DNA of 64,000 nucleotides, taken from positions 1-64,000 of the forward strand of contig JAKRSF010000012.1 in assembly GCA_022402445.1 (NCBI GenBank), read 5' to 3'. Position numbers and translations under genes: made by a program. This DNA comes from Cyanobacteriota bacterium. Lineage in GTDB: Bacteria; Cyanobacteriota; Cyanobacteriia; CACIAM-69d. The notes beneath the pieces were generated by a model, which saw nothing but the letters and a program-made list of their open reading frames with translations, had not been told where the DNA came from and did not search any database. This document shows positions 30,196 through 54,423 of this stretch, in pieces (position 1 is the first letter of the stretch; the number at the start of each line of letters is the position of its first letter).

Positions 30196-31041
30196 TCAAT
30201 TCACCTTCTTCCGTTCACTGCGATAGCGGAAATACTCACTGCTCAGGGCGATCGCAGCGGAGAACGAAATCAGCAGCGCACTGAGGGCATTCACATCCGG
30301 CTTCACCCCCGTGCGGATGCGGCTAAAAATCTCCATCGGCAGCGTCGTCGCCCCATTGCCCGCCGTGAAACTCGCAATCAAAAAATCATCCAAACTCAGC
30401 ACAAACGCCAGCAAACACCCCGACAAAATCCCCGGAGCCAACTGGGGCAACAGCACCTGAAAAAACGACTGCAACGGCGTCGCCCCCAGATCCAGCGCCG
30501 CCTCCTCTAAATGCGGATCCAAATCCCCCAGCCGCGTGGACACCACGATCGCCACATAGGCCAAACAAAACACCACATGGGCCGCCACGATCGTCCACAC
30601 ACTCAGGGGAATCGCCAACGCCGCCAAAAACACCAGCGTCGCCACCGCGATCGCAATATCCGGCACAATCGTCGGCAGATAGGACATGCCCAAATAGAGC
30701 CGCTTGCCCCAGAACTGATAGCGCGCCAGCCCCACCGCCACCATCGTCCCCAGCACCGCCGCCACCGCCACCGCCACCAGGGCCACCAGCAAACTAGTCC
30801 GCAGCGCCTCCAGAATCCGATAGTCCGAAAACAGCTTCGCGTACCACGTCAGCGTAAACCCCTTCCAACCCGCGCTGTAGGGCGACTCATTAAAGCTATA
30901 GACCGTCAGCACCAAAATCGGCAGGTACATCAGGAAATACATCACCCCACTGAACACCCCCTGCCAGCTCAGTTGTGGCTTCAGTCGCTTAGCCATAGGG
31001 TCCGTCGGATCCTCCGGTGGAGTGGGCAAAATCGTAGTCAT
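30196..31041 (-). CDS. potC: Spermidine/putrescine ABC transporter permease PotC
   Basis: 281 residues, six hydrophobic helices. The type I ABC importer coupling motif is EEAALDLGATPLQSFFQVLLP at about 180-200 (EAA loop), and SPYSAGWKGFTLTWY is typical of PotC. Last gene of the minus-strand pot operon, it forms the membrane channel together with PotB. The start may be the first Met or MAKRLKPQL 15 codons later. Confidence 0.92.
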   Translation of the reverse strand: MTTILPTPPEDPTDPMAKRLKPQLSWQGVFSGVMYFLMYLPILVLTVYSFNESPYSAGWKGFTLTWYAKLFSDYRILEALRTSLLVALVAVAVAAVLGTMVAVGLARYQFWGKRLYLGMSYLPTIVPDIAIAVATLVFLAALAIPLSVWTIVAAHVVFCLAYVAIVVSTRLGDLDPHLEEAALDLGATPLQSFFQVLLPQLAPGILSGCLLAFVLSLDDFLIASFTAGNGATTLPMEIFSRIRTGVKPDVNALSALLISFSAAIALSSEYFRYRSERKKVN

Positions 31042-31114
31042 GGAGTAGCGAGCGGGGGTACATGGGGCACGGGATCAGGGCGGAAAACGGTCCCTCCCTA
31101 TCGGTCGGTCTGAC

Positions 31115-32023
31115 CTAGGTCTTCGGCGTCGCGTCACCGTAGCGGATCAGCAGCGCGATCGCGGCACTCACCGCCAAAATTATCACCATACTCAAGGACG
31201 ACCCAAAGCCCCAATTCTGCGTCGCCCCCAGAAACTGGTTATAGATCAACCGCGACGCCGTCATACTCGACGCCCCCCCCAACAGTTCCGGATTAATAAA
31301 ATCCCCCAAACTGCTGATGAACACCAGCAGCGACCCCGCCGCAATGCCCTGAATACTTTGGGGCACCGTCACCTGCCAAAACGCCTGCACCGGCGTCGCC
31401 CCCAGATCCGACGCCGCCTCCAGCAGCCGCCGATCCAGCTTCTCCAGGGACGAATAGAGAATCAGCACCATATAGGGCAAAAAGCTATAGCTCATGCCAA
31501 TGAGCACCGCCGCATTTTGATTGAGCAAATCCAACTGGGGAATGCCAAAGGTCGCCAAAAAGGAATTCAGGACACCCGTAGGCCGCAAAATCGTAATCCA
31601 GGCGTAGGACCGCAGCAGCGAGGAGGTCCACAAAGGCAGCACAAAGGCCACCACCAGGGCATTGCGCCACCGCCTCGGCGACATCAGGGCGATCCAATAG
31701 GCCACCGGAAACCCCAACAGCAGACAAATGGCCGTGGACGCCCCCGCAAACCCCACCGTCCGCAGGATCACCCGCAGGTAGATGGGCTTGAGGATTTCCA
31801 CATAGTTATCGAGCCCCGAAGGGTTGACCAAATCCCCAGGGCGAATGCCGGGAACGAGGCTCAGCTCAAAAATCACCAGGACGGGCAACACCAGCAGCAG
31901 CAGCAGCCACAGGCCCGGTGGCCCCAACAAAATCCAAGGGCCGAGCCCCTGGGTGCGCGATCGCCGCTCCTCCGGCTCCGGGGTGGCGGGAGTGGGCGGG
32001 ACGGGGGAAACGGATTCAGTCAT
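31115..32023 (-). CDS. potB: Spermidine/putrescine ABC transporter permease PotB
   Basis: 302 residues starting MTESVSPVPP, a Pro-rich cytoplasmic tail before six membrane helices. PGLWLLLLLVLPVLVIFELSL opens the membrane domain and LLEAASDLGATPVQAFWQVT is the EAA coupling loop. Partner of PotC in polyamine uptake. The in-frame sequence upstream of this start overlaps potD and is not protein-like. Confidence 0.92.
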   Translation of the reverse strand: MTESVSPVPPTPATPEPEERRSRTQGLGPWILLGPPGLWLLLLLVLPVLVIFELSLVPGIRPGDLVNPSGLDNYVEILKPIYLRVILRTVGFAGASTAICLLLGFPVAYWIALMSPRRWRNALVVAFVLPLWTSSLLRSYAWITILRPTGVLNSFLATFGIPQLDLLNQNAAVLIGMSYSFLPYMVLILYSSLEKLDRRLLEAASDLGATPVQAFWQVTVPQSIQGIAAGSLLVFISSLGDFINPELLGGASSMTASRLIYNQFLGATQNWGFGSSLSMVIILAVSAAIALLIRYGDATPKT

Positions 32024-32093
32024 CGACGCATTCCTCGCAAATTCCTGGCAAACTCCCGATGGGGACGCGGTGCTAGCCCAAAGGGGCCACCGC

Positions 32094-33191
32094 CTAGGCG
32101 CTGGTGAGCAGGGTCCAGTAGCGATTGTAAAAGGCAGTCGCCTCGCCCACGGGGGAGATACTTTCACATTTGGCCAAAATCTCCTCCGAGGGGAAGAGGC
32201 TGGGGTTTTCCGCTAGGTCCGGCGGCAACTGTTCATAGGCGACGCGGTTGGGGGTGGCGAAGGCGAGGGTTTCGGTGACGGAGGCGGCCACGTCTGGCTT
32301 GAGCAAAAAGTTCAGCCACGCATAGGCCCCGTCGGGGTTGGGGGCGGTGATGGGGATGGCCATGGTGTCGGTCCACAGGGAGGTGCCGCTGCGGGGAATG
32401 GCGTAGCGCAGGTCTGGGTTTTCTTCTTCGACGCCGACGGCATCGGCGGAGTAGCTCATGGCGGCGAAGAGATCTCCGGCTACCATGCGATCGCGCCATG
32501 CGTCGGTGGTGAAGGACGCGATCGCGGGGCGCAACTCCCGCAGGGCCTCATAGGCGCGGCGAATCTCCTCCGGGTCCGTGGCATTGTAGGAATAGCCCAA
32601 CCGGCGCAGGGCGGCCCCCATGGTCTCGCGCGGGTCATTGAGCATGGTCAGGCGGCGCGCGAGGCGGCTGCGGTTATCCCAGAGGTAGTCCCAGTCCACG
32701 GGGTCGCTGCCCAGGCGCGCTTGGTTATACACCAGCCCCGTGGTGCCCCAGGAGATGGGAATGCTGTACTGATTTTCTGGATCATAGGCGGGATTTTGGT
32801 AGGGCTCAAAGAGGCGATCAAGCCCGTCGAGGCGATCGTGATCCAAGGGAACCAGCAGCCCCAGGTCCCGCATCCGCCGAACCATATAGTCCGATGGATA
32901 AATAATGCTATACACCCCGCCGCCGCCGGACTGGAGCTTCGCCAGCATCACCTCATTCGAGTCAAAGACATCCGCCACCACCTCGATGCCCGTTTCCTGG
33001 GTGAACCGTTGCAGCAGGGCGCGATCGGTATAGCCCGCCCAGGTGTAGAGATAGAGCTTATTGCTGTCGCCGCTGGGGGCCACGGGCCGCACATCCGCCA
33101 GCCGCCACCCACACCCCGACAGGGCCAGACCCGAAGCGGCAGCAACCGATTGTTGAAGGAACAGGCGGCGCGAGTAGGGGTTACGGGGCAT
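32094..33191 (-). CDS. potD: Polyamine-binding periplasmic lipoprotein PotD
   Basis: 365 residues. The N-terminus has a twin-arginine-like motif (SRRLFLQQS) and a lipobox LALSGC (cleavage before Cys27), so the protein is probably an exported lipoprotein. LYLYTWAGYTDRALLQRF, FDSNEVMLAKLQSGG, YSIIYPSDYMV and NDPRETMGAAL are typical of PotD/PotF. It delivers spermidine or putrescine to PotBC. Located between potA and potB, an order seen in several cyanobacteria. Confidence 0.92.
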   Translation of the reverse strand: MPRNPYSRRLFLQQSVAAASGLALSGCGWRLADVRPVAPSGDSNKLYLYTWAGYTDRALLQRFTQETGIEVVADVFDSNEVMLAKLQSGGGGVYSIIYPSDYMVRRMRDLGLLVPLDHDRLDGLDRLFEPYQNPAYDPENQYSIPISWGTTGLVYNQARLGSDPVDWDYLWDNRSRLARRLTMLNDPRETMGAALRRLGYSYNATDPEEIRRAYEALRELRPAIASFTTDAWRDRMVAGDLFAAMSYSADAVGVEEENPDLRYAIPRSGTSLWTDTMAIPITAPNPDGAYAWLNFLLKPDVAASVTETLAFATPNRVAYEQLPPDLAENPSLFPSEEILAKCESISPVGEATAFYNRYWTLLTSA

Positions 33192-33349: not shown

Positions 33350-34483
33350 CTAGGCCGCGAGGGCAAGGCAATCGACCGGGGACCAATGGACATAAACGGG
33401 CACATGGAGCTTGGGCCGCTCGCCCCCCGTATTCACCTGCATGACGGTGACGCGATCGCCCGATCGCAGTTCTACCACGTAATGGACGTGGGTACCCAAA
33501 TACATGATGTTCCGCAAATCCCCCTCGAAACAGTTGGCCGCCACCTCGGGTTTATAGAGGCTCACGTGGACCTTTTCCGGGCGCACGCTCACCACCACAT
33601 CGCCGCCGCCGCCGCCGCCACCGGCCCAGGGCTCCTGGGATTTCACGGCCAACTGTAACCCTGCGTCGGTCACCACGGTCAGGCCGTCGCGATCGTGCTG
33701 GGTGAGCCGCCCGCGAAAGAGGTTCGTCTCGCCGATGAAGTCCGCCACGAAGGGGGTCCGGGGCCGTTCATAGATTTCGCTGGGGCTGCCAATTTGCTCG
33801 ACGCGCCCTTCGTTCATCACGGCGATGCGATCGGACATGCTCAGGGCCTCCTCCTGGTCGTGGGTGACCATCACGAAGGTCATGCCCAACTCCTGCTGGA
33901 GGCTGGTGAGTTCCACCTGCATTTCCTTGCGCAGTTTGAGGTCCAGGGCTCCGAGGGGTTCATCGAGCAGCAGGACGGCGGGGCGATTGACCAGGGCGCG
34001 GGCCAGGGCCACCCGCTGCTGCTGGCCGCCGGAGAGTTGGGCGGGGTAGCGGTGGGCGAAGCTGGTCATTTTCACCAGTTCGAGGGCTTCGCGGACGCGA
34101 TCTTGCAGTTCGGCTTTGGTTTTGCCCTTGAGTTTGAGGCTGAAGGCTACGTTGTCCCAGATGGTCATGTGGCCGAAGAGGGCGTAGCTCTGGAAGACGG
34201 TGTTGACGGGGCGCTGGTAGGGGGGCACCGTCAGCATGGATTGGCCCCGCACGAGCACTTCGCCCGCCGAGGGGGTTTCAAAGCCGGCCACGAGGCGGAG
34301 GGTGGTGGTTTTGCCGCAGCCGGAGGGGCCGAGAATGCTAAAAAATTCGCCGCTGCGGATCTGGAGATCGACGCCGCGCACGGCGGTTTCGCCGTTGTAG
34401 ACCTTAAAGACTTTCCGCAGTTCGACATCGTAGGCCGTGTCGGTTTTGGACGGGCGTTGGGTCGAAACCGCAGTTTGGGACAT
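33350..34483 (-). CDS. potA: Spermidine/putrescine ABC transporter ATP-binding protein PotA
   Basis: 377 residues. Walker A LGPSGCGKTTTL (about 52-63), Q-loop VFQSYALFGHM, signature LSGGQQQRVALARAL, Walker B VLLLDEPLGALD and switch His in VMVTHDQEEAL are all intact; a C-terminal TOBE-like regulatory domain follows (from about 270). First gene of the potA-potD-potB-potC operon; divergent from the PBP2-like gene across a 190-bp promoter region. Energises polyamine import at the inner membrane. Confidence 0.94.
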   Translation of the reverse strand: MSQTAVSTQRPSKTDTAYDVELRKVFKVYNGETAVRGVDLQIRSGEFFSILGPSGCGKTTTLRLVAGFETPSAGEVLVRGQSMLTVPPYQRPVNTVFQSYALFGHMTIWDNVAFSLKLKGKTKAELQDRVREALELVKMTSFAHRYPAQLSGGQQQRVALARALVNRPAVLLLDEPLGALDLKLRKEMQVELTSLQQELGMTFVMVTHDQEEALSMSDRIAVMNEGRVEQIGSPSEIYERPRTPFVADFIGETNLFRGRLTQHDRDGLTVVTDAGLQLAVKSQEPWAGGGGGGGDVVVSVRPEKVHVSLYKPEVAANCFEGDLRNIMYLGTHVHYVVELRSGDRVTVMQVNTGGERPKLHVPVYVHWSPVDCLALAA

Positions 34484-34671
34484 GGGACCGGGGGTGTTTC
34501 AGGGACTAACGGATGGGGGCGGGCAAGGGGCGATCGCGGGGCGGAAATCTTGCCCTATTCTAGGCGGTTGCTTTGGTGTTTTGGCAGGGGCGAGCGCGGG
34601 GGTTAAAGCACGGGGCCAGCGATTGTGGCAATCTGTGGGTATGGTACGGTTTGGGTTCCTGCGGGGCTCCT

Positions 34672-36495
34672 ATGGCGTCATCCCAACAACCGACGGTTAA
34701 GCAGCCGCCCGCCCGGACGGTGGGCCAACGCTATCAGCCTTTGGCGCTGGTGGTGGGGGCGACGCTGTGCGTGTTGGGGGGCATGGGGGGCCGTCTGGCC
34801 TACCTTCAGATTTTGCAGGGCAATCAAAACCGCGAGTTGGCGGCGGCGAATCGGGTGCAGTTGATGCCCCTCGCTTCGGCTAGGGGGCGGCTGTGGGATG
34901 CCCGGGGGCGGCTGCTGGTGGATAGCCGTCCGGCCTATTCGGTGTTTATTTGTCCGGTGACGCGCGATCGCCGCGCCTGGCAGCCGGTGATTGATCAGTT
35001 GGCCATGGCGTTGGGGGTCAGTGCGGGGGAAATTCGCGGGCGCATTGAACGGGTGGGCTATCGATCGCCCCAGTGGGTCCGGGTCGCCAGTCAGCTACCG
35101 CCGGAACGCCTCACCGCGATCGCGGAACTGAGCCACAGCATCGGCGGCATCCAAATCGAAGCGGAAACCGGGCGCGACTACCCCTACGGCCCCGTCGCCC
35201 TACCGGTTTTGGGCACCGTCAGCGAACGCACCACCGCCGACCTGGGCACCCGCCTGCCGCCGCCGACCCCCGCCCTCGACAGCCCCAACGGCCTCGACTT
35301 CGACGACTTTGGGGAACTGGTGGGCCGTTCAGGACTCGAAGCCGCCCTTGATGACCGCCTACGCGGTGCCGCCGGAGCCCGCCGGGTAGAAATTGACGGC
35401 CAGGGCCAACAGTTGCGCGTCCTGGCCGAGCGGCCCGCCGTCCCCGGCGAAGATCTCACCCTCACCCTGGATGTGGAATTGCAGCAGGCGGCGGAGGTGG
35501 CCCTGGGGGAATATGTGGGCACGTTGGTGGCCCTGGATCCCCACAGTGGCGGCGTCCTGGCCATGGCGAACAGTGGCGGCCGCGATGCCCTCTCGGTGGC
35601 CGGGGGCGATCGCTTCCCCCCCCCGGCCAATGGGGCCATCAAGGCAACGATCCCCGGCCCCTGGATGCGGCTGGTGGTGGCCCTAGCGGGGCTCGAGTCC
35701 AAGCGCTACGGCCTCCATGAACGGCTTTGGGTGTCACCGCTCCAGCGCACCGGCGGCATCGCCTACGATCGCTTCATCACCACCTCCCCCCTCAGCGGAG
35801 CCACCCTAGGGTTTGCCGAAGCCCTCGCGGCCCCGGCGGAGGCGGCCAGTGAAGCCTTCTTTGAGCGGGTGGCGCGGGATGTGGGGGTTGCGGAGGTGCT
35901 GCGGTGGGGCCGTCGCCTGGGCCTGGGGCAGCAAACGGGTATTGAACTGGTGGCGGAGGAGGAGACGGGCACGAGTCTAGAGACCCTCTGGACCCAGGAG
36001 TCGTGGCAGGGGCGCTGGTATGTGGGGGAGGGGATGAATGCGGTGATGGGCCGGGGGGGGCTGACGGCGACGCCGCTGCAAATGGCGGTGGTGATGGCGG
36101 CGGTGGCCAATGGGGGCTATCGGGTGTTGCCGCACCTGTTGCAGGGGCAAGCTTCGCGCAGTGGCCGCGAGTTTTTGGGCTTTGATCTTAAGAAGTTGGA
36201 CCATGTGCGATCGGGGCTCCAGCGGCCGGAGCGCCAGGGCGATCGCGAAACGGTGCCCCTGTTGCCCATGGCGGCGATCGGGGGGGTGGCGCGGGTGTCG
36301 GGCGATCGCACCTTGGCCTGGTATGGGGGGTTTGCGCCGCCGGAGAATCCCCAGGTGGTGGTGGTGGGCTGGGTCGAGGGGCGCGGCCAGCAGGGGCTAG
36401 AGGCGGCGGAACGGGCGGTGCGGCTGACGGCGGCGTCTCACCTCAGCGCGGCCCAGGGTTCTCTCCGCCGAGGGGGAGTGTCCGCCGTTGACTGA
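34672..36495 (+). CDS. PBP2-like class B penicillin-binding protein, transpeptidase motifs lost
   Basis: 607 residues. One N-terminal transmembrane helix (LALVVGATLCVLGGMGGRLA), a PBP dimerisation domain (ARGRLWDARGRLLVDSRPAY, then the GLD...VGRSGLEAALDDRLRG linker) and a transpeptidase fold of normal length follow PBP2/MrdA. All three catalytic motifs are replaced: the SxxK site reads IPGPWMRL instead of PGSTFK, the SxN site reads AASEAFF, and KTGT reads AIGGVAR. The surrounding fold is conserved (LVVALAGLE, GLGQQTGIELVAEE, TATPLQMAVVMAAVANGG, WYGGFAPPENPQVVVVGW). So it is probably a non-catalytic, structural or regulatory divisome/elongasome protein. ATG at 34672 chosen over an upstream in-frame start. 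Confidence 0.85.
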   Translation: MASSQQPTVKQPPARTVGQRYQPLALVVGATLCVLGGMGGRLAYLQILQGNQNRELAAANRVQLMPLASARGRLWDARGRLLVDSRPAYSVFICPVTRDRRAWQPVIDQLAMALGVSAGEIRGRIERVGYRSPQWVRVASQLPPERLTAIAELSHSIGGIQIEAETGRDYPYGPVALPVLGTVSERTTADLGTRLPPPTPALDSPNGLDFDDFGELVGRSGLEAALDDRLRGAAGARRVEIDGQGQQLRVLAERPAVPGEDLTLTLDVELQQAAEVALGEYVGTLVALDPHSGGVLAMANSGGRDALSVAGGDRFPPPANGAIKATIPGPWMRLVVALAGLESKRYGLHERLWVSPLQRTGGIAYDRFITTSPLSGATLGFAEALAAPAEAASEAFFERVARDVGVAEVLRWGRRLGLGQQTGIELVAEEETGTSLETLWTQESWQGRWYVGEGMNAVMGRGGLTATPLQMAVVMAAVANGGYRVLPHLLQGQASRSGREFLGFDLKKLDHVRSGLQRPERQGDRETVPLLPMAAIGGVARVSGDRTLAWYGGFAPPENPQVVVVGWVEGRGQQGLEAAERAVRLTAASHLSAAQGSLRRGGVSAVD

Positions 36496-36644: not shown

Positions 36645-38351
36645 ATGGGCGCACCTCAGGCCGATCCCATTGGTGTGGTGTCCGTGGGGGCAGATGCGAT
36701 GCGATCGCCGATCCCCGAAAGTCTGTGGCGGCCGGTGTGCGATCGCCCGTTGGACCGGGAGGTTTATGGGCATTTGGGGGATTGGCTCTTTGGGCAGGGG
36801 CGCTGGGCGGCGGCGATCGTGGCCTACCTGCGGCGGTTCGATCCCGGCGGCAAGTCCCTGATGGCCTACCGGCGCTTTAGCCAAACGGTGCCCCAGGATG
36901 AGGCGGATCGGGAACTGGGGATAGATTTTCTGCGGGCCGGGGAGGCGGTCACGGCGATCGCCTGCGGGCGGCGGGCGGTGATGTTGCAACCGAATCAACC
37001 CAAAAATTGGGTGCTGCTGGGGGATGCGTGGCGGATTCTGGGGGATGAATGTGAGGGATCGGAGTTAGGGGATTTAGCAGAGCGCGATCGCCAGGTGGTG
37101 ACGGCCTATCTGGAGGCGCTGTACCGGGATCCGTCCCTGCGGGAAGCTTACATGGGCCTGTCGTTCTGGGGCCGCAAGCGCGATCGCGAGGATGCCCTGC
37201 AATGTGGCCGCAAATGGCTGTCCCCGTCCCTGCTGCGGGAGTTTGCCCCCGAGGCCACCTGGCAAGAACGGCCCATCGCGGCGGCGATCGCGGCGGGCAC
37301 GGTGACGATGAAACCCCTGCGGCCTGCGGATCCGACCTATGAACTGGCGGCGTCGCGATCGCCCTTTGGGGATGCGCCCTATCACACGTTTGAAACCACC
37401 CCCTGGCCGCGCCCGTCGGAACAGGCGATCGCGGTGCCCGATGCCCGCCTCTGGTGCGACCACTACACCCACGCCCTCTTTGACCGGGACGGCTACCTCC
37501 TGCGGGGCGATCTGGATCTGGGGGGCACGGAACTGATCGCCGCGTCGCCCCATTTGCCCCCGGCGGATCGGCTACCGGGGCGATCGGCGGTGCTGGCCAT
37601 GGCGGGCTGTTCCATGTATTGCCATTGGATCTTGAATATGTTACCTCGCCTGGGGCTACTGGAACAGGCGGGTGAATCCATCGAAAATCTGGACTGGATT
37701 TTAGTGAATGGGGATGAGCTGAGCTTTCAGCACCACAGCCTAGAGATGCTGGGCATTCCCAAATCAAAAATCGTGCCGGTGAATCCCCACTGGCGACATC
37801 TGCGCCTGGAGACGGCGATCGTCCCGTCGCGCATCGAACGGCTGCGGCCCTGGGTGGTGGATTTCCTACGCGATCGCTTCTGGCCCCATGCCCAGCCCTG
37901 TGCGGAGGTGCGATCAAAGCGGTTATATATCAGCCGTCGGCAGGCGGACTACCGGCGCTTGATTGACGAGGATGACCTGATCGTAAAACTCTACCAGCGG
38001 GGATTTCAGGGGGTGTGCCTCGAAACGTTCCCCCTGACCCAGCAGATTGCCATGATGGCCCAGGCGGAGGTGATTGTGGCTCCCCACGGGGCGGGCCTGA
38101 CGAATATTGCCTTTTGTCGTCCGGGTACAATTGTACTGGAGATATGTTCGCCGGTTTATGCGCCCCATTACTTTTGGGAGTTGGCGGCCTGTGCCCAGGT
38201 GCGCCACTATCACCTCATTGGCCGCGATCTGGACGAACATCCGGATCCGGAGGCGGTGAAGAAGGAGCGCTATGTGGATCCGGCGGCGGAGGGCATTTGG
38301 ATTGACCCCGATCGCGTGGTGGCGGCCCTGGATGCGTTGGGGATCACCTAG
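36645..38351 (+). CDS. GT61-family glycosyltransferase with helical N-terminal region
   Basis: 568 residues. The C-terminal half is a DUF563/GT61 domain: SMYCHWILNMLPRLGLLE, SKRLYISRRQADYRRL, VCLETFPLTQQIAMMAQAEV and the hallmark VIVAPHGAGLTNIAFCRPGT, ending LEICSPVY. The N-terminal 230 residues look like TPR/Sel1-type helices (WLFGQGRWAAAIVAYLRRF, VMLQPNQPKNWVLLGDAW). Such fusions are usual in cyanobacteria and probably build surface polysaccharide; acceptor unknown. No signal peptide. Confidence 0.85.
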   Translation: MGAPQADPIGVVSVGADAMRSPIPESLWRPVCDRPLDREVYGHLGDWLFGQGRWAAAIVAYLRRFDPGGKSLMAYRRFSQTVPQDEADRELGIDFLRAGEAVTAIACGRRAVMLQPNQPKNWVLLGDAWRILGDECEGSELGDLAERDRQVVTAYLEALYRDPSLREAYMGLSFWGRKRDREDALQCGRKWLSPSLLREFAPEATWQERPIAAAIAAGTVTMKPLRPADPTYELAASRSPFGDAPYHTFETTPWPRPSEQAIAVPDARLWCDHYTHALFDRDGYLLRGDLDLGGTELIAASPHLPPADRLPGRSAVLAMAGCSMYCHWILNMLPRLGLLEQAGESIENLDWILVNGDELSFQHHSLEMLGIPKSKIVPVNPHWRHLRLETAIVPSRIERLRPWVVDFLRDRFWPHAQPCAEVRSKRLYISRRQADYRRLIDEDDLIVKLYQRGFQGVCLETFPLTQQIAMMAQAEVIVAPHGAGLTNIAFCRPGTIVLEICSPVYAPHYFWELAACAQVRHYHLIGRDLDEHPDPEAVKKERYVDPAAEGIWIDPDRVVAALDALGIT

Positions 38352-52443: not shown

Positions 52444-54423
52444 TTGTCTAAATTGCCTGCCCCGCGCCCCGTGCCCCGCCAGCCTAAGGCCGTCCGGCGA
52501 TCGCGGCCCCACCCCGCCACCGCCGCCGCCCCCCCGATCCCCCTCGGGGAACCCTCCGAACTGGGCCACTTCCTGGGCAACGTGGGCCGCACCGTCGGAG
52601 CCACCCTCCTGGCGGGCACCATGATCGGCAGCGCCACCCTCGCGGGCACCCTCGTCGGCCTCGCCGTCAGCTTCCGCAACCTGCCCGATGTCCGCATCCT
52701 GCAAAGCTACAGCCCCAGCGAAACCAGCTATATCTACGACGTGCGGGGCCGCCTCCTCAGCAGCCTCCACGACGAAGCCAACCGCGAAGTCGTCGTCCTC
52801 GATCGCGTCTCCCCCCACCTCAAACGGGCCATCCTCGCGATCGAAGACAGCTCCTTCTACCAACACCCCGGCATCAACATCGGCAGCATCCTGCGGGCCA
52901 TCACCACCAACTTTGAAACCGGCCGCGCCGCCGAAGGGGGCTCCACCATCACCATGCAATTGGTGAAAAACCTCTTCCTCACCCCCCAAAAACGCATCAG
53001 CCGCAAGGTGGCCGAAGCGGTCCTGTCCCTGCGCTTAGAACAGATCTTCTCCAAGGACGAAATCCTGGAGATGTACCTCAACCAGGTCTACTGGGGCCAC
53101 AACAACTACGGCGTAGAAACCGCCGCCCAAAGCTACTTCAATAAGTCCGCCGCCGATCTCACCCTCGCCGAAGCGGCCCTCATGGCGGGCATGATCCAAG
53201 CCCCCGAGGACTACAGCCCCTTCAATAATTACAAACTCGCCAAGCAGCGCCAATCCCTCGTCCTCAGCCGGATGCGCCAACTGGGCTGGATCACGGAAGC
53301 AGAGGAGCGCACCGCCCGCCAGCAGCCCCTCTATGTGGGCCGGGTCACCTCCTTCCGCACCAGCAAATTACCCTATGTCACCAATGCCACGATCCAGGAG
53401 CTAGAAAAGCGCTTTGGCCGTGATGCGCTCCTGAAGGGGGGCATGCGCGTCCAAACAACGGTGGATTTTTATTATCAAAAGATGGCGGAACAGACCGTCA
53501 AGGAGGCTTACGCTCGCCTGCGATCGCGCGGAGCCCGCATTGATCAAATGGCCCTAGTGGCCGTGGATCCGCGCACCCATTTCGTGAAGGCCATGGTCGG
53601 CGGCGTGGACTACGAACGGAGCCAGTTTAACCGCGCCATTCAAGCCTTGCGGCAGCCCGGATCCTCCTTCAAACCATTGGTGTACTACGCCGCCTTCGCC
53701 ACAGGGCGCTACACACCGGACTCGATCGTTCAAGACACCCCCGTGAGCTACCCCGACGGCAATCGGGTCTATCGACCCCGGAACTACGGCGGCGGCTTTT
53801 CGGGAAGTGTGTCCATCCGCCGCGCCCTGGAGATATCCCTCAATATTCCGGCGGTGCGTTTGGGTAAGGAAGTGGGCCTCAATCGGGTGATTGAAACCTG
53901 CCGCATCCTCGGGTTCCATAGCCCCCTAGAGCCCGTATCATCCCTGCCACTGGGTTCAGCGGACGTGACGCCCATGGAGATGGCTGGGGCCTTTGCGACG
54001 TTCGCAAGCGGCGGCTGGCACTCGGATACGACCTTTATCGTTCAGGTGACCGACAGTTCCGGCAAGGTGATGCTGGACAATACGCCGAAGCCGCAGTTGG
54101 TCTTGGATCCGTGGGCGGTGGCGTCGCTGAATTCGGCCCTGAAGGGGGTGATCGAGCGGGGGACAGCCACTTCGGCGCGGCTGGGGCGTCCGGCGGCGGG
54201 CAAGACGGGGACGACGGATTCGGAGCGGGATCTGTGGTTTGTGGGCTATGTGCCGCAGCTATCGGTGGCGGTGTGGGCGGGGAATGATAATTACGCACCG
54301 ATCGGTTATGGGGCGACGGGGGGGACCTATGTGGCTCCGGTGTGGCGATCGTTCATGGAGCGGGCGCTGCGGGGGGTGCCGCCGAAGGATTTCGCGCCGC
54401 CGAGTCAGTTTCCAAAACCCTAG
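52444..54423 (+). CDS. Class A penicillin-binding protein (PBP1A-type)
   Basis: 659 residues with one N-terminal transmembrane helix (about 45-75). The GT51 transglycosylase has AIEDSSFYQHPGINIGSI and GGSTITMQLVKNLFLT with the catalytic Glu, and ILEMYLNQVYWGHNNYGVE. The transpeptidase has all three motifs: GSSFKP (about 405), SLN in EISLNIPAVR, and KTGTT. So, unlike the PBP2-like protein at 34.7 kb, it should be active in peptidoglycan synthesis. Starts probably at TTG 52444; a GTG 27 bp on is an alternative. Confidence 0.92.
   Translation: MSKLPAPRPVPRQPKAVRRSRPHPATAAAPPIPLGEPSELGHFLGNVGRTVGATLLAGTMIGSATLAGTLVGLAVSFRNLPDVRILQSYSPSETSYIYDVRGRLLSSLHDEANREVVVLDRVSPHLKRAILAIEDSSFYQHPGINIGSILRAITTNFETGRAAEGGSTITMQLVKNLFLTPQKRISRKVAEAVLSLRLEQIFSKDEILEMYLNQVYWGHNNYGVETAAQSYFNKSAADLTLAEAALMAGMIQAPEDYSPFNNYKLAKQRQSLVLSRMRQLGWITEAEERTARQQPLYVGRVTSFRTSKLPYVTNATIQELEKRFGRDALLKGGMRVQTTVDFYYQKMAEQTVKEAYARLRSRGARIDQMALVAVDPRTHFVKAMVGGVDYERSQFNRAIQALRQPGSSFKPLVYYAAFATGRYTPDSIVQDTPVSYPDGNRVYRPRNYGGGFSGSVSIRRALEISLNIPAVRLGKEVGLNRVIETCRILGFHSPLEPVSSLPLGSADVTPMEMAGAFATFASGGWHSDTTFIVQVTDSSGKVMLDNTPKPQLVLDPWAVASLNSALKGVIERGTATSARLGRPAAGKTGTTDSERDLWFVGYVPQLSVAVWAGNDNYAPIGYGATGGTYVAPVWRSFMERALRGVPPKDFAPPSQFPKP

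Follow-up and report, generated by a model that had tools for sequence, protein, structure and literature searches.

A PBP2-type protein without its three catalytic motifs is maintained in a cyanobacterial family and may be a non-catalytic partner of RodA

Engineered point mutants have served to ask if a SEDS pair needs its class B PBP mainly for allosteric partnership or for enzymatic activity. A gene in the window (the whole stretch of 64,000 nucleotides analyzed here) raises this question for a natural protein, a PBP2-like sequence with an open frame and none of the catalytic motifs: is it a gene in decay or a maintained pseudoenzyme, and if maintained, for which role? The literature searched, the coverage of which was incomplete, held no description of a comparable natural dead class B PBP.

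Domain layout and catalytic motifs of the window protein

The frame at 34672-36495 on the forward strand was intact, as the preliminary description had reported, and encoded a class B PBP of the PBP2/MrdA type, 607 amino acids long. With an alternative TTG start at 34573 the protein would be 33 amino acids longer, while the N-termini of the orthologs agreed better with the ATG at 34672. Nothing was found in a promoter scan. The features of the gene were as follows.

34672..36495, +, pseudo-PBP2 gene, 607 amino acids and stop
34705..34869, +, residues 12-66: RTVG..YQ cytoplasmic motif, transmembrane (TM) helix and start of the membrane-proximal pedestal (GGMGGRLAYLQ...NRVQLMP)
34873..35421, +, PBP_dimer domain (pedestal and head), residues 68-250, from Pfam
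35518..36420, +, transpeptidase (TP) domain without catalytic residues, residues 283-583, from Pfam
35659..35670, +, PWMR (P330-R333, inside IPGPWMRL) at the SxxK position, from the alignment
35833..35853, +, PAEAASE, with ASE (A392-E394) at the SxN position and, just 5' of it, a 4-residue insert common to the family orthologs
36277..36288, +, IGGV (I536-V539) at the KTG(T/S) position, from the alignment

The fold was assigned from profile matches; an AlphaFold model (two sequences) had a pLDDT of 36, was uninformative and was left unused. Both Pfam domains exceeded their curated cut-offs, PBP_dimer (PF03717) with 95.2 bits and Transpeptidase (PF00905) with 78.9 bits, the latter covering positions 1 to 294 of the 299 in the profile, in agreement with the earlier claim of a transpeptidase fold kept over its whole length. 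The hydrophobic N-terminal segment was conserved in the alignment, and the order of TM segment, PBP_dimer and transpeptidase was that of a class B PBP. The best PDB matches were MrdA chains. The nearest NCBIfam model was the MrdA equivalog TIGR03423, for which the protein scored 291.9 bits against a cut-off of 455 and thus was not assigned as an equivalog.

Motif columns were located in alignments of 82 and 116 PBP2-like sequences, and they landed on the very stretches (IPGPWMRL, AASEAFF and AIGGVAR) that the preliminary description had named as replacements. All three motifs of an active DD-transpeptidase (SxxK, SxN/SxD and KTG(T/S)) were missing. A shift of the motifs to other positions, the finding that would have counted against that description, was ruled out by a scan of the whole protein, in which S..K was absent throughout and K[TS]G and SxN were absent from plausible places. 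Judging from its motifs, the protein is probably catalytically inactive. The loss was confirmed to be beyond chance, the motifs being intact in the sampled full-length cyanobacterial PBP2-like proteins outside the family, with a single exception in another family (genome G055).

Orthologs, locus and paralogs in the family

A single ortholog was found in each of the examined genomes of the window's taxonomic family (6 of 6, from three genera), always with a full-length frame free of stops, with all three motifs broken and with the 4-residue insert before the SxN position. At the SxxK, SxN and KTG positions these orthologs read as follows.

PWMR/ASE/IGGV, window genome (G000)
PLFQ/DSE/ISSS, G005
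ALFK/DSD/THSL, G002 and G004
SLFE/LSE/RSST, G001 and G003

The serine of the nucleophile position was retained in G001 and G003, and the lysine of SxxK in G002 and G004. Since the serine survives in one genus and the lysine in part of another, SxN and KTG may have been the first to go, in the common ancestor, with SxxK eroded later in each lineage. In the G001 and G003 orthologs (L043:5537-7654 and L044:2769-4886), a serine-rich, acidic stretch was also inserted immediately ahead of SxxK, and the C-terminal tail was longer.

The dead orthologs formed one clade (support 100/100, and 100/99 without active-site columns), nested within the intact cyanobacterial type A PBP2 proteins (97/99), hence in a PBP2 and not an FtsI grouping. 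The G055 copy (L055:5745-7559, i.e., G055:C36:17745-19556, also in L016) lies at the pot locus and is a PBP2 with less erosion, reading SPFK/NSD/QGGT at the motif positions. Its loss was read at first as independent, a reading undercut by its grouping with the dead clade at 97/88 without active-site columns; placement within its own family was not rejected (p-AU 0.089). The motif loss in the family clade and in G055 may have one or two origins. The G055 genome contained a further PBP2 fragment, ending at a contig end (L059). Scans for further homologs returned none from viral contigs and, from genome contigs, a Desulfobacteraceae MrdA as the sole match.

The position of the gene bears on its descent. 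Its divergent neighbours in the window were the following.

33350..34483, -, potA-like ABC ATPase (ABC_tran and TOBE_2), a marker of the ancestral PBP2 locus
30196..33191, -, remainder of a potABCD-like operon: solute-binding protein and two permeases

The dead gene was divergent to this operon in the window, G002, G004 and G005, and the same potA-adjacent place held an intact type A gene in G010 and G011 and the less eroded copy in G055. The orthologs of G001 and G003 had other neighbours and no longer adjoined potA. By its locus, the dead protein is the positional ortholog of the ordinary cyanobacterial PBP2; as it shares the pot-operon locus with intact cyanobacterial PBP2, it was the ancestral copy that died. 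The active type B copy of the family was located away from the pot locus. The dead copy and type B may or may not be in-family duplicates (p-AU 0.166 and 0.48). Directly 3' of the dead gene, the window encoded a glycosyltransferase 61 family protein (36645-38351, +), which was not a neighbour in the relatives inspected, and 17 kb downstream a class A PBP transpeptidase domain (53548-54360, +) with intact SSFK/SLN/KTGT.

The preliminary description had proposed a search for a second, active mrdA. Each of the six family genomes encoded two PBP2-type paralogs, types B and C, with intact motifs; those of the window genome were located as follows.

G000:C7:505728, type B, STFK/SSN/KSGT
G000:C5:101914, type C, STFK/SSN/KTGT

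Types B and C were far apart in this genome and adjacent in genus g3 (L053, G002:C4:173843-178135; L054, G004:C80:40692-44985; L052, G005:C63:3660-7632). The window genome also encoded FtsI (STFK/SSN/KTGT) and three class A PBPs. One RodA and one FtsW were found in it and in most relatives searched (the incomplete G003 showed one SEDS protein), and MreB and MreC were present in all family genomes.

Constraint along the protein and its proposed role

Retention of ancestral residues was measured over 330 columns conserved at 80% or more among the intact type A proteins (n = 32). Of these columns, the dead orthologs kept 82-88% in the cytoplasmic and TM part (type B, 76-88%) and were about equal to active type B in the pedestal and head. 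Around SxxK they kept 25-38% against 69-86% in type B, and in the KTG region 35-39% against 76-82%; the GxGxxTATPLQ helix was among the parts of the TP domain still conserved. In a scan of all 30-column segments, the excess of ancestral sequence over type B was largest at residues 35-64 (0.76 against 0.46, with 0.48 in type C), comprising the transmembrane end and the membrane-proximal pedestal, followed by residues 123-152 in the head.

Residues 35-64 are tied to RodA through homology with E. coli and Thermus. L64 of the window protein aligned with L61 of E. coli PBP2, in the membrane-proximal pedestal, and was kept in the six dead orthologs and the G055 copy and nearly invariant in type A, being serine or threonine in type B and glycine or arginine in the type C of the family. 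In E. coli PBP2, the pedestal and position 61 control polymerisation by RodA (PMC6207328, PMC8078798), and L61R increases it in vivo and in vitro (PMC6207328). An interpretation of L61R as a loss of activation was ruled out, given that this change activates RodA (PMC6207328), and the substitution at the L64 position could leave type B either weaker or more active.

The dead protein thus has the conserved RodA-facing TM and pedestal segment of a SEDS partner. The combination of a dead TP domain with a RodA-facing segment that is better conserved than in the active copies points towards a RodA partner with no catalytic role, and we lean towards a maintained pseudoenzyme that is a partner or modulator of RodA while its paralogs crosslink. 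Its ancestor is the elongation PBP2 that cyanobacteria carry next to the pot operon, and its TM helix and pedestal are still those of the ancestral RodA partner. It would most likely bind the single RodA and set or modulate glycan polymerisation, whether by activating RodA allosterically or by competing with the active PBP2 without crosslinking itself, and cross-linking would be left to the intact-motif paralogs (types B and C) and the class A PBPs. We infer the binding to RodA, the direction of the effect and the division of labour from these comparisons. More tentatively, and with rather less confidence, the two functions of PBP2 might have been split in nature across the family, the dead protein being a dedicated activator or brake of RodA and the cross-linking falling to a paralog whose RodA-facing segment has diverged.

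Several observations stand against a RodA partner. The dead orthologs were highly diverged overall (37-41% identity between genera), and the active paralogs also keep the TM helix and pedestal and could themselves partner RodA. As an altered residue at the L61 position can activate (L61R in E. coli), the pseudoenzyme might be an inhibitor instead of an activator. A non-crosslinking partner could also be toxic unless another protein couples cross-linking in. It is possible, if rather unlikely, that the main partner of the pseudoenzyme is not RodA, the protein being a part of the elongasome or divisome (with MreC, RodZ, a class A PBP or a septal protein) or a sensor of uncrosslinked stem peptides or glycan in a remodelled cleft. 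The maintained frame, the constraint on head residues 123-152 besides the TM segment and the conserved TP-domain portions such as the GxGxxTATPLQ helix agree with such a role. The strongest ancestral retention nevertheless fell on the RodA-facing TM and membrane-proximal segment, and the cleft regions differed freely between genera, contrary to what a conserved ligand site would display.

Selection was estimated among the six family genomes as dN/dS, by a simple pairwise counting method. The dead gene gave 0.118 (G001/G003), 0.084 (G004/G002) and 0.210 (G004/G005); types B and C of the same genomes ranged from 0.04 to 0.09. The G000/G005 pair (0.39 for the dead gene, 0.23-0.26 for types B and C) was near saturation and was left out of this range. 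In the N-terminal half, the dead gene and type B were close (0.071 against 0.055, and 0.132 against 0.117), while in the TP half the dead gene was about threefold higher (0.143 against 0.049, and 0.233 against 0.072), with non-overlapping bootstrap intervals. The N-terminal half is under constraint equal to that of the active paralogs, and relaxation is confined to the transpeptidase half; for the window's own copy, in which dS is near-saturated, the N-terminal half seems as diverged as the TP half.

A redundant pseudogene in slow decay would account for the relaxed TP half, the lineage-specific erosion of the motifs and the long branches, and yet it is improbable, as all usable pairs had a dN/dS (0.08-0.21) much lower than 1, the N-terminal half was constrained like that of active genes and full-length frames persisted in six genomes of three genera. 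The maintained pseudoenzyme of the preliminary description, which had suggested dN/dS as a check, was thereby supported, and its idea of a scaffold is compatible with the same frame, dN/dS values and N-terminal constraint. Continued catalysis through other residues, or a new chemistry, could be read from the serine of G001 and G003 and the lysine of G002 and G004; it is very improbable, given that the orthologs share no nucleophile at the motif positions, that the KTG region is lost in all of them and that the window protein has no SxxK at all. The decoy (or sensor) for beta-lactams that had also been suggested draws on homology to penicillin targets and hardly deserves retention, being neither mechanistically likely, with the nucleophile and the other lactam-binding, activating and acylating residues all gone, nor needed in a genome that has a class D beta-lactamase-like protein. 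The latter (L004, G000:C10:102740-103417) displayed STFK, YGN and KTGW.

Comparison with known systems

If the dead PBP2 is a partner of RodA, it would represent a natural separation-of-function class B PBP, with its motifs gone in three genera and selection acting on the RodA-facing part, and a component of the elongation machinery insensitive to beta-lactam. It resembles E. coli PBP2/MrdA of the Rod system (8TJ3, TIGR03423) in its layout, which runs from the TM helix through pedestal/PBP_dimer to the TP domain, and in a membrane-proximal NRxxL segment that includes the equivalent of L61, and differs from it in the three missing motifs and in its TIGR03423 score (292 against 455). With the intact cyanobacterial type A PBP2 of G010 and G011 it shares the potABCD locus, the N-terminal segment and 36-42% identity, whereas these proteins carry STFK, SSD or SSN, and K(S/T)GT.

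Class B PBPs that can work without catalysis, which is wholly or partly dispensable in them, are known from B. subtilis PBP2B (PMC8078798) and from C. difficile SpoVD and PBP3 (PMC12713402). Like the proposed role of the dead PBP2, these are needed as proteins or SEDS activators while another PBP crosslinks, or act non-catalytically; they are, however, intact enzymes probed by point mutants, while the loss in the family is natural and fixed. H. pylori Csd1/Csd2 also pairs a cell-wall enzyme with a non-enzymatic homolog (PMC5053510, PMC9507126), so that a dead homolog is kept alongside the active enzyme as in the family studied here. Unlike PBPs, Csd1 and Csd2 are M23 peptidases, and Csd2 works through heterodimerisation.
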